Source: Iocasia fonsfrigidae (GTDB taxonomy: Bacteria; Bacillota; Halanaerobiia; Halanaerobiales; DTU029). From it: a DNA stretch of 64,000 nt. Shown piece after piece: positions 38,687 through 42,817 of this stretch. The position numbers and the translations under genes were made by a program. How positions within the stretch are numbered: position 1 is the first letter of the stretch; each line of letters opens with the position of its first letter. The stretch covers positions 186,001 through 250,000 of the forward strand of contig NZ_CP046640.1 in NCBI RefSeq assembly GCF_017751145.1, given 5' to 3'. The notes beneath the pieces were generated by a model. It searched no databases. It was not told the DNA's origin and saw nothing but the letters and a program-made list of their open reading frames with translations.

Positions 38687-40429
38687 ATGGTGAAAAAGAT
38701 GACTGGTGCTGAGATTTTTGTTGAGTCGCTTCATCAAGAGGGTGTTGAGCTTATCTTTGGGTATCTGGGGGCAAAGGTAATCTCGATTTATGATGTGCTA
38801 TATGATGCGGATATTAAACATATTATGCCACATCACGAACAGGGGGGTATTCATGCAGCAGATGGGTATGCCCGCTCTACTGGTAAAGTTGGTGTCTGTA
38901 TTACTACTTCTGGGCCAGGGGCAACTAATTTAGTAACGGGACTGGCCACTGCCAACATGGATTCAGTACCCGTGGTAGCTTTTACAGGTCAGGTAGCCCA
39001 TTCGATGATTGGGACAGATGGTTTTCAGGAAGCAGATATTAAAGGGGTTACCCTACCAATTACCAAAAACAATTATATTGTTGATGATGTTAAAAATTTG
39101 GCTCGGGTTATTAAAGAGGCTTTTTATATCGCACAAACTGGTAGACCTGGGCCTGTTCTGGTTGACCTGCCACAGGATGTTCTGTCTGCTGAAACTGAAT
39201 TCAATTATCCGGCTGCTGTTTCCATACCCGGTTATAAACCGACCTATCAAGGTAATTTGCTGCAGATTAAAAAGGCGGCAGAGTTGATTAATCAAGCTCA
39301 TAAACCAGTAATTTATGCTGGTGGTGGGGTTATAATCTCCGGGGCCAATGAACAATTAAGGCAGCTGGCAGCTAAGGCTGAGATTCCTGTGACAACAACC
39401 CTAACAGGGATTGGTTCCTTTGATGAGAAGAACTCTTTAAGCCTGGGAATGCTTGGAATGCACGGGACAACAGAGGCTAATCTGGCTATGACCAATGCTG
39501 ACCTAATCATTGCTCTAGGGGCTCGTTTTGATGATCGGGTAACAGGTGAACTGGATTCTTTTGCCCCTGAAGCCAGGATTATTCATGTTGATATTGATCC
39601 GGCAGAGATTAGTAAACTGGTCAAAGCAGATATCCCAATAGTTGGTGATGTTAAGAGGGTTTTGGAGGATTTAAATCCACTTGTTCAGGAGAAAAAACAT
39701 GGTCAATGGTTGAGAGAGATTCAAGAATGGAGGGGACTTGAACGGAGAAGGGGCTCAGGAAAGACTGGTAAATTGCTCCCTGGAGAGATTATTGAGGAAA
39801 TTGATAATTTGACTAAGGGAGAGGCTCTGATTACTACTGAGGTTGGTCAGCACCAAATGTGGGCAGCACATCATTACAGTTTTAGTAAACCACGTAGTTT
39901 TATCACATCTGGTGGGTTAGGAACAATGGGCTATGGTTTCCCGGCGGCAATCGGGGTACAACTTGGTAATCCTGGAGCTGATGTTTTCTGCCTGGCAGGT
40001 GATGGTAGTTTTCAGATGAATATTCAGGAACTGGCTACAGTAGCCAAAAATAAACTACCGATTAAGATTATAATCTTTAATAACCAGTACCTGGGAATGG
40101 TGAGGCAGTGGCAGGAATTATTTTTCGACAAACGCTATTCCGCTACCTGTTTAAGGCGGCAGGAAGGGTGCCCGCCCCGGTGTTCAGGACCAGGTGAAAA
40201 CTGTCCTGAGATGATTCCTGATTTTGTTCAGGTTGCTAAGGGGTATGGTATTAAGGGGAAAAGGGTAAGTAGGCCGGAGGAAATAAGACCAGCCCTACAG
40301 GAAGCCCTTGATATTAATGAGGCCTATCTACTTGATTTTATTATAGAAGAGGAAGAGAATGTCTTTCCTATGGTTCCGGCAGGTGGTAGTCTGGATGATA
40401 TGATTCTAAGGCAGGATATTGAACATTAG
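38687..40429 (+). CDS. ilvB: acetolactate synthase large subunit
   Basis: This 580-residue ThDP enzyme condenses pyruvate (or pyruvate and 2-oxobutyrate) in Ile/Val/Leu synthesis. It has the catalytic glutamate E51 in HHEQGG, the SGPGATN and TGQV motifs, an FAD-binding middle domain and the ThDP/Mg motif GDGSFQMN through FNNQYLGMVRQWQ. Two features stand out. The usual GxPGGAVLP near residue 26 reads GYLGAKVIS, and a Cys-rich insertion CLRRQEGCPPRCSGPGENC (about 488-506) interrupts the region before PDFV. No ilvN regulatory subunit follows. The T-box leader ties expression to branched-chain aminoacyl-tRNA supply. Confidence 0.92.
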   Translation: MVKKMTGAEIFVESLHQEGVELIFGYLGAKVISIYDVLYDADIKHIMPHHEQGGIHAADGYARSTGKVGVCITTSGPGATNLVTGLATANMDSVPVVAFTGQVAHSMIGTDGFQEADIKGVTLPITKNNYIVDDVKNLARVIKEAFYIAQTGRPGPVLVDLPQDVLSAETEFNYPAAVSIPGYKPTYQGNLLQIKKAAELINQAHKPVIYAGGGVIISGANEQLRQLAAKAEIPVTTTLTGIGSFDEKNSLSLGMLGMHGTTEANLAMTNADLIIALGARFDDRVTGELDSFAPEARIIHVDIDPAEISKLVKADIPIVGDVKRVLEDLNPLVQEKKHGQWLREIQEWRGLERRRGSGKTGKLLPGEIIEEIDNLTKGEALITTEVGQHQMWAAHHYSFSKPRSFITSGGLGTMGYGFPAAIGVQLGNPGADVFCLAGDGSFQMNIQELATVAKNKLPIKIIIFNNQYLGMVRQWQELFFDKRYSATCLRRQEGCPPRCSGPGENCPEMIPDFVQVAKGYGIKGKRVSRPEEIRPALQEALDINEAYLLDFIIEEEENVFPMVPAGGSLDDMILRQDIEH

Positions 40430-40454
40430 TTATAAATATTTTTGTTAATTTTAC

Positions 40455-40483
40455 TTTACAATTTATAAAAATAATGGTATGAT
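40455..40483 (+). promoter_or_regulatory. promoter of the FMN riboswitch transcript
   Basis: TTTACA (40455-40460) and TATGAT (40478-40483) are 17 bp apart, about 30 bp before the riboswitch. Confidence 0.65.
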
Positions 40484-40513
40484 AATGGCAAAGCTGAATA
40501 TAGTTATTTAAAT

Positions 40514-40628
40514 ACTAATGAGGATGGGTGAAATTCCCTACCGGTGGTTAAAGTCCACAAGCCTTTTTATAAAAAGGTTGATCTGGTGAAACTCCAGAAC
40601 CGACAGTATAGTCTGGAAGGGAGTTAGT
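40514..40628 (+). promoter_or_regulatory. FMN riboswitch (RFN element)
   Basis: The conserved RFN motifs occur in order: AGGATGGGTGAAATTCCC (from 40521), TACCGGTGGT, the variable P3 hairpin with CCTTTTTATAAAAAGG, GATCTGGTGAAACTCCAGA and ACCGACAGTATAGTCTGGA. ACTAA (40514-40518) and TTAGT (40624-40628) close P1. It binds FMN and then favours the terminator at 40679-40712, reducing expression of the riboflavin genes downstream. Confidence 0.95.
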
Positions 40629-40678
40629 ATAATTGTTTTATCTATGTAGATATTATGACTAGGTAGATGATGATATAT

Positions 40679-40712
40679 AATCCTTTCCAGTTAAATGGAA
40701 GGGATTTTTTTG
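40679..40712 (+). terminator. FMN riboswitch terminator
   Basis: AATCCTTTCCA pairs with TGGAAGGGATT (one G-U pair) around a short AT loop and is followed by seven T residues. It is the expression platform of the riboswitch. Confidence 0.88.
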
Positions 40713-40759
40713 TGTCAGGAAACTATGCGATTTTGAGATTGTGGATAACTTTGAAGGCC

Positions 40760-40933
40760 GACAGATATATTTGTTTCCCTTGTCGTTTACCGCAGGCACT
40801 CCGCATCTAAGCAGAGCGTACAAGAAAATTAATGTTGCGCTGCGGTGTCCTACCTCCGTTTACTGTCGAGAAATTCTCCTTCGGCGTCCTGCCTACGGAT
40901 AATATCTAGAGTCGTACAACAAATATATCTGTC
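40760..40933. repeat. 174-bp element with 16-bp perfect terminal inverted repeats
   Basis: GACAGATATATTTGTT (40760-40775) recurs as its exact reverse complement at 40918-40933. The interior is visibly richer in G+C than the neighbours, has no open frame, and shows imperfect inner complementarity (GGCACTCCGCA against TGCGGTGTCC). The size and termini resemble a MITE or a large REP-type palindrome. It lies between the riboswitch terminator and ribD. No clear target-site duplication is visible. Confidence 0.65.
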
Positions 40934-41046
40934 TGGTTAATAGTTTATTGATTAACTATGTGTAATAAATAGTCTAAGTTAAGAAAGCTGGAATTTTTGA
41001 TTAATCCGGATGGCCGTAGGCCATTTCGTTCTGAAAGGAGATATAA

Positions 41047-42153
41047 ATGGATAAAAAAGATGACCTATATTACATGAGAGAGGCATTAAAACTGGCTTGG
41101 AAGGGGGAGGGGTATACCAGTCCTAATCCCCTGGTAGGGGCTGTTGTTGTTAAAGATGGGGAGGTTGTTGGTAGGGGTTATCATAGGTATTATGGTGGGC
41201 CTCATGCAGAGGTATATGCCTTAGATGAAGCCGGTAAACAGGCTGAAGGGGCAACTATCTATGTAAATCTGGAACCCTGTAGTCATTATGGGAAAACACC
41301 ACCCTGTTCCTTAAAAATAATAGAATCGGGTATTAAACGGGTAGTTATTGCTATGCAAGACCCCAATCCCAGGGTTTCTGGTAGAGGTATTAATCAACTG
41401 CAAAAAGCTGGTATACTGGTTAAAATAGGTCTTTTAGCAGATGAGGCCCGGGAACTCAATGAGTCTTTTATAAAATATATTACTTCAGATTACCCCTTTG
41501 TTTATCTAAAGATAGCCCAGACATTGGATGGTTTTCTGGCAACTAGAACAGGAGAATCTAAATGGATCAGTAATGAGCAAGCCCGCTTAATGGGTCATAG
41601 ATTAAGACATAAAGTAGATGCTATTTTAATAGGGGGTGGTACAATTTTAGCAGACAATCCCTCGTTAACAACCCGTTTGCCAGATGATAAGGGAAAGGAC
41701 AGTATTAGGATTATACTTGACTCCCGGCTAGAGACACCTTTAGATGCCAGGCTCCTTAATCAGGATTCTGCAGCAAGAACCATTCTGGTAATTGATGAAC
41801 AGCTTAATACAACCAGAAGAAATCTGTATACTAATAAAAAAAATATAGAGCTTTTACCACTGGATTTAGATACTAAAGGGAGGATTCCTCTGAAGATATT
41901 ATTAAATAAACTACATGAAAGGGGTATAGGGAGTATTTTAGTTGAGGGAGGTGGTAGGATAAATTATTCATTCCTACAGGAGAACTTAATAGATAAAGTA
42001 TATGCTTTTATTACCCCCAAAGTTCTGGGAGGAAATGATGGCATAGCCAGTTTTACAGGGGAAGGTCCTGATAGTATGGCAGAGGTAAAGAAACTAAAAA
42101 ATATTAAGTACATGGTTTTAGGGGATAATATACTTTTAAGTGGCAATCTTTAA
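41047..42153 (+). CDS. ribD: RibD, bifunctional pyrimidine deaminase/reductase
   Basis: This 368-residue protein makes the second and third steps of riboflavin synthesis. The deaminase domain (1-145) has the zinc site H53-A-E55 and PCSHYGKTPPC (C78, C87). The reductase domain (about 147-368) has YLKIAQTLDGFLATRTGESKWIS, GGGTILADNPSLTTR and the NADPH loop ILVEGGGRINYSFL. It is the first gene of a tight operon; ribE overlaps or abuts its end. AAAGGAG precedes the ATG. Confidence 0.95.
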   Translation: MDKKDDLYYMREALKLAWKGEGYTSPNPLVGAVVVKDGEVVGRGYHRYYGGPHAEVYALDEAGKQAEGATIYVNLEPCSHYGKTPPCSLKIIESGIKRVVIAMQDPNPRVSGRGINQLQKAGILVKIGLLADEARELNESFIKYITSDYPFVYLKIAQTLDGFLATRTGESKWISNEQARLMGHRLRHKVDAILIGGGTILADNPSLTTRLPDDKGKDSIRIILDSRLETPLDARLLNQDSAARTILVIDEQLNTTRRNLYTNKKNIELLPLDLDTKGRIPLKILLNKLHERGIGSILVEGGGRINYSFLQENLIDKVYAFITPKVLGGNDGIASFTGEGPDSMAEVKKLKNIKYMVLGDNILLSGNL

Positions 42154-42166
42154 AGGTGGTGGGATT

Positions 42167-42817
42167 TTGTTTACTGGGATTATACAGGAACTTGGTATTT
42201 TACAGGGGAGCTTGAGGACAGAAAATAGCTATCAACTGTTAATTAAAGCTAAAAGGGTTTTAAATAATATTAAAAAAGGGGACAGTATAGCTGTTAATGG
42301 TGTCTGTCTTACGGTTGTTGACTTTACTGGAGAATCCTTTACAGTTGATATTATGCCTGAAACCCTGCGGGCAAGTAATTTAGGTAGTTTAAAACAGGGC
42401 TCTCAGCTAAACCTGGAACAGGCTGTTAGGGCTGATGGTTTTTTGGGTGGACACCTACTTAGTGGGCACATTGATGGTGTGGGTCGGGTGAAACAATTTA
42501 CTACAGAAAAAAATGCAGTGATAATTGAAATAATGGTCGATTCAGAGTTGACAAAGTTTATGGTTGATAAGGGTTCTGTGGGCTTAAATGGGGTTAGTTT
42601 GACTATTATGAAACTCAGGCAGGATTCTATAATGGTTTCTTTGATACCTACTACCCGGCAGGATACTAATCTAGATAACTTAAAAGTGGGTCAGCTGATT
42701 AATATCGAGACAGATTTAATTGCTAAATATGTTTATAAAATAATGGAAAAAGGAAAAAGTGAAAAGACGGGTTCTGAAATTGATAAAAATTTTTTAAGGG
42801 ATAATGGGTTTCTCTAG
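42167..42817 (+). CDS. ribE: RibE, riboflavin synthase alpha chain
   Basis: This 216-residue enzyme has two tandem lumazine-binding domains (about 1-97 and 98-200), seen in MFTGIIQELG at the start and two similar repeats, GDSIAVNGVCLTVVDF and GSVGLNGVSLTIMKL. It dismutates 6,7-dimethyl-8-ribityllumazine to riboflavin. The invariable MFTGII start corresponds to TTG at 42167, preceded by AAGGTGGTGGG; an in-frame ATG at 42140 inside ribD would add a non-conserved leader. Confidence 0.93.
   Translation: MFTGIIQELGILQGSLRTENSYQLLIKAKRVLNNIKKGDSIAVNGVCLTVVDFTGESFTVDIMPETLRASNLGSLKQGSQLNLEQAVRADGFLGGHLLSGHIDGVGRVKQFTTEKNAVIIEIMVDSELTKFMVDKGSVGLNGVSLTIMKLRQDSIMVSLIPTTRQDTNLDNLKVGQLINIETDLIAKYVYKIMEKGKSEKTGSEIDKNFLRDNGFL

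Follow-up and report, generated by a model that had tools for sequence, protein, structure and literature searches.

The rib leader and the gap before ribD

What lies between ribD and its riboswitch in Iocasia fonsfrigidae, where did it come from, and does it affect control by FMN? In the window analysed here, meaning the whole stretch of 64,000 nucleotides (coordinates are those of the window unless the genome is named), an FMN riboswitch aptamer (RF00050, 40510–40632, 110.7 bits, E 3e-26) is followed on the same, forward strand by its intrinsic terminator (40679–40712), a hairpin with an 11-pair stem (40679–40706) and a T tract, and the RFN aptamer and the expression platform of an FMN riboswitch are thus both present. 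The first gene of the rib operon, ribD (41047–42153, forward strand; TIGR00326, 375.7 bits), starts only at 41047, as the first-pass annotation had recognized in describing the riboswitch, the terminator and the gap. The sequence TGGAAGGGA at 40614–40622, within the aptamer, recurs at 40696 as part of the terminator's 3' arm, so that the 5' arm of the terminator is able to pair with either strand and the copy at 40614–40622 can serve as the antiterminator strand. Judged from its sequence, the rib leader is an ordinary attenuation switch, with all of its parts upstream of position 40713. A promoter-like site, TTTACA-17-TATGAT with TG before the -10 (40455–40483, forward strand), could drive the leader; promoter-like sites in this region are no more numerous than in shuffled sequences, which makes this one weak on its own. 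Further upstream, and in the same direction as ribD, is the gene for the large subunit of acetolactate synthase (38687–40429; TIGR00118). The distance from the aptamer end to ribD is 414 nt, compared with about 70–257 nt in 18 relatives that have the riboswitch, which fits an insertion, and it falls to ~99 nt when 315 bp are subtracted.

An inserted element of 315 bp and its inner module

We propose that these 315 bp (40717–41031, forward strand) are a non-autonomous element of the IS91 family of rolling-circle (HUH) transposons, mobilised in trans by a 1.6-kb insertion sequence (IS) of the same genome, a reading that we hold to be very probable. The ends were taken from an alignment of copies compared together with their flanks, and they are common to the IS, which is 1598 bp in length. 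The element at ribD starts with AGGAAACTATG at 40717 and closes with a hairpin and ATTTCGTTC, with GGCCATTTCGTTC ending at 41031. This right end (41010–41031, forward strand), an ATGGCC-GTA-GGCCAT hairpin with a T-rich tail and GTTC, is the same in relatives. No target-site duplication was seen at 40717/41031 in the sequence of the occupied site, and the site before insertion is predicted to have read ...TTTTTTTGTGTC followed directly by TGAAAGGAG.

The genome (3.93 Mb, one contig) carries copies at ~65 scattered sites, as counted by genome searches and by individually read stretches. They fall into size classes of ~155, 262–266, 313–317 and 374–376 bp, distinguished by what they have as inner module, and the dispersed copies contain no transposase gene, as is characteristic of non-autonomous elements. 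Variation and frequent erosion at the left ends make the exact junctions of old copies uncertain. A conserved, extended ribD leader with a regulatory role would be expected to have the same sequence at the same place and no other copies, and the structured inner module, with stems that covary across copies, would suit such a role. The opposite was found, in that the genome holds many copies, with the same element sequence standing before dozens of unrelated genes, and a search of 40 relatives turned up no full copy. These results point to insertion and refute a conserved leader as the origin of the sequence, and we regard a regulatory leader of this kind as extremely improbable.

The first-pass annotation had placed the ends of the mobile unit at a perfect 16-bp inverted repeat bounding 174 bp (40760–40933, forward strand). 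That repeat is real (40760–40775 and 40918–40933, with arms that lie 142 nt apart and are complementary at 16/16 positions), and the base composition differs as claimed, with a GC content of 0.454 versus 0.341 for the window, at the 97th percentile of the 174-bp stretches within it. The claim of an insertion therefore stands and the boundaries do not: similarity among copies passes the inverted repeat on both sides and continues to the unlike outer ends at 40717 and 41031, so that the mobile unit has 315 bp and encloses the 174-bp piece as an optional module. A classical MITE is marked by inverted repeats at its termini, and this unit has none there. In ~10 copies the module is missing and only a palindrome, GACAAATATATTTGTC, stands in its place. 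The inverted repeat is not due to chance, since the genome holds dozens of instances of the module, the arms of which still pair in spite of changes. Both the arms and the inner hairpins stay paired across copies through changes on both sides, which is why we think that the module probably acts in a folded form, as single-stranded DNA or as RNA; the wobble pairs in the inner hairpin (16 G-T versus 12 A-C) show no clear asymmetry by which to assign a strand and leave DNA and RNA undistinguished.

The 174-bp piece might instead be an independent MITE that inserted at ribD. In its favor are the single-palindrome copies and a relative of the inner core in another genus (L072, about 1450–1620) that lies inside a different, longer inverted repeat (TTTTTCAAAGCTATTATCTTTTT...). 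Since the inverted repeats around the core in L072 are unrelated, the core may constitute a separate module, mobile or structured, and may once have moved alone. At numerous sites, ribD among them, homology nevertheless crosses both flanks of the module to the same outer ends, which makes an independent MITE very unlikely and indicates that it was the outer element, with the core already inside it, that arrived at ribD.

Two further features of the copies should be noted. A perfect match to the DnaA box, TGTGGATAA, recurs in several types of element from more than one genus, ~25–30 nt in from the left end (this genome, G003, G017, G033 and G035). It was dropped as a special left-end signal, being exact in only 34/59 miniature copies with neighboring positions better conserved. 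The elements are often adjoined by another repeat, which has similar hairpins (GGAGGCAGGACGCCGGA), apparently in reverse sense, and AATAATTTTAATTCT inverted repeats at its boundaries (genome positions 1710430–1710639, 52000, 3239600 and 3909200).

The IS91-family partner transposon

Directly behind several copies begins an open reading frame, read as 441 amino acids, for a transposase of the IS91 family (NF033538, 286.8 bits with a cut-off of 125; PF04986 and PF14319 also above cut-off). The HUH motif and two catalytic tyrosines, assigned by eye, are found in its translation as FNPHIHALLTEG and RYIGRYLARPAM and are kept in relatives. The autonomous IS is present in eight nearly identical copies of 1598 bp that begin AGGTATAGGAAATTATGTG...TTTGTGGATAACTT and end GGGTGGCGGAGCCATTTTGTTC, both of which match the ends of the miniature copies. 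As is typical of IS91, the two ends are unlike and non-inverted, with a hairpin and a tetranucleotide of the GAAC/GTTC type. The left junction follows the GTTC end of another element in 7/7 of the IS copies read, and in the eighth by its coordinates, and IS and miniature copies stand head-to-tail in tandem arrays joined at GTTC. Because an IS91-family transposon of the same genome has the same two ends and stands head-to-tail with the miniature copies, we assign the ribD insert to this family as a non-autonomous member; its mobilisation in trans and the chemistry of cutting and joining are what we infer. A search of genome contigs with the transposase as query gave no match. Elsewhere in the genome, two transposase genes from another subgroup of the IS91 type (1594913 and 1607085) are on the strand opposite to the fork direction. 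The transposases of L161, L163 and L164 have kept a QLKLI/QLRLI peptide that resembles a beta-clamp binding motif, which we mention only as a lead.

Insertion behind intrinsic terminators

The terminator of the rib leader ends just before the element, and the same arrangement is found elsewhere. Where the upstream gene is on the leading strand (40 sites), the element starts 6–16 nt past the first T of the T tract of an intrinsic terminator in 15 cases, as compared with 1.9 +/- 1.3 for random positions in the same gaps (maximum 7 in 2000 draws). A terminator was visible to the detector in 23/40 gaps and none in 17/40; targeting of terminators may thus be a preference, the detector may miss some of them, or the terminator may since have been lost at other copies. 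For other genera, in which the transposases of related IS copies reach at best 64–66% identity, a terminator is present at the left junction in 11/15 related elements versus 102/1500 random positions (6.8%); these 15 comprise IS copies together with short elements that have similar ends and different insides (L075 and L142), and in L075 the element comes directly after GCCTTCTGGATTAATCCAGGAGGCTTTTTAAATGTC. The right end of the element, a hairpin and then ATTTTGTTC, itself looks like a terminator, and this resemblance would explain new copies landing behind old ones.

We put forward a mechanism, with slightly better than even confidence, in which this branch of the IS91-family HUH elements has adopted terminators as its target, recognizing a hairpin and T tract on the single-stranded lagging-strand template, and in which a right end that mimics a terminator seeds arrays. 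Specifically, the transposase would most likely recognize as its target a single DNA strand on which a hairpin precedes a T-rich tract, and both an intrinsic terminator and the element's own right end look like such a target. The left end would be joined just 3' of the T-rich tract, so that a new copy would come to lie downstream of a terminator or of the right end of a copy already in place, and the latter event would build the tandem arrays. The terminator of the FMN riboswitch (40679–40712) would be one such target. The ribD case itself is an ordinary insertion by this IS91-family group, and three further attenuators have an element directly behind them, namely the glycine riboswitch before gcvT, the T-box before ileS and the PyrR-type attenuator before pyrB (sites L014, L102 and L104, near genome positions 3909536, 1833539 and 2176821, with the three genes named from their translated N-termini).

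Selection could produce a similar pattern on its own if insertion took place anywhere between genes and copies survived only behind terminators and co-directional with genes. Nearly all copies do lie between two co-directional leading-strand genes, gaps of which type make up 119/144 in the sample, and the loss by selection of copies that hit promoters or coding sequence could add to the pattern. The distance from the T tract nevertheless stays narrow (6–16 nt) where a gap is long and leaves hundreds of bases free, and the same narrow rule holds in other genera at different sites. We therefore consider selection alone to be unlikely and retain targeting of terminators as our working proposal.

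Polarity relative to the replication fork

All copies point with the fork, as determined for 50/50 left ends and 40/40 right ends, with dnaA at position 1 of the genome and the GC skew reversing between 2.045 and 2.10 Mb. A single polarity relative to the fork would follow from terminator targeting because the polarity of terminators follows that of genes (~91% leading; 254 leading versus 24 lagging in the sample). Perhaps it would also follow from the use of the single-stranded lagging-strand template as target. The abundance of the target tetranucleotide was rejected as a cause, since GTTC is rarer in the leading sense (533 versus 722) and predicts the opposite bias.

It may be that targeting of terminators is sufficient and that the fork has no direct role, given that terminators number 53 leading versus 8 lagging and most targets are already so oriented. 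Such targeting predicts ~13% reversed copies, whereas none was observed (P about 0.004 for 40 sites), a conclusion that is loose in that the expected rate rests on eight terminators. We give this simpler account somewhat less than an even chance, and the absence of reversed copies loosely favors an added effect of replication, for example through the lagging-strand template as target. Gaps with a lagging gene on either side (4/144 in the sample) give no power to separate an effect of the fork from one of gene direction, and IS91 copies across the phylum are too few per complete genome for a test of orientation. A replication-linked bias in the orientation of insertion sequences in Firmicutes was reportedly described by Gomez et al. 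in 2014, a study that PMC6006769 cites, and it resembles the present case in being an orientation relative to replication.

Consequences for ribD

The first-pass annotation had suggested that the insert could weaken control by FMN, and for this we find no support. The aptamer, the antiterminator and terminator pairing and the Shine-Dalgarno sequence of ribD are all intact. The last of these, GAAAGGAG, lies with the start codon just beyond the element (41033–41049, forward strand), and because the element sits between the T tract and GAAAGGAG, both the FMN switch and the Shine-Dalgarno sequence are preserved. Within the element, the search for promoters gave one 9/12 match, which is not above shuffled sequences. 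Control by FMN is hence expected to be intact at ribD, where the effect of the insertion would be neutral, with read-through ribD mRNA acquiring a structured spacer of 315 nt.

Relation to known systems and significance

Elements of the IS91 family and their miniature derivatives are already known (PMC3189936, PMC5714925), as are small derivatives and co-mobilised neighbors of IS801 (PMC3189936). The group described here shares with IS91 and IS801 the transposase family (NF033538, PF04986, PF14319), the HUH motif and the paired tyrosines, and with IS801 a terminal tetranucleotide that reads GTTC, or GAAC on the complementary strand. It differs in its preference for terminators and its strict polarity to the fork, both undescribed in the IS91/IS801 literature within reach, and a literature text search, with most subscription papers beyond its reach, gave no earlier report of terminator-directed insertion by the IS91 family. 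Compared with ISCR elements, the transposase gene would be in the opposite sense if the strand ending in GTTC is the one transferred.

Group IIC introns also insert at intrinsic terminators (PMC4424553), by a route that uses the strands of the replication fork, but they are RNA-based retroelements, whereas the element here is tied to a DNA transposase; a search for group II ribozyme RNA over 39500–42500 gave no match. Elements of the IS608 type are HUH elements that use the lagging-strand template, and the IS200/IS605 group, to which IS608 belongs, and the REP/TnpA-REP systems resemble the present one in having HUH enzymes, single-stranded DNA, hairpins at the ends and many short intergenic repeats (PMC6006769). 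They differ in that their enzymes have a single tyrosine and belong to another family, and terminators are not described as their target.

If terminators are indeed the target, this branch of the IS91 family would be the DNA-transposon counterpart of group IIC introns, arrived at by convergence. Use of the lagging-strand template by IS91-type elements is assumed rather than shown in the literature within reach, and the element offers a direct test. Insertion behind terminators would also constitute a safe-haven strategy in which genes are spared, and would explain the strict polarity of the copies. For the organism, the same targeting would mean that structured spacers are repeatedly put between riboswitches or other attenuators and the genes that they control, as seen at all four attenuators: FMN-ribD, glycine-gcvT, T-box-ileS and PyrR-pyrB.
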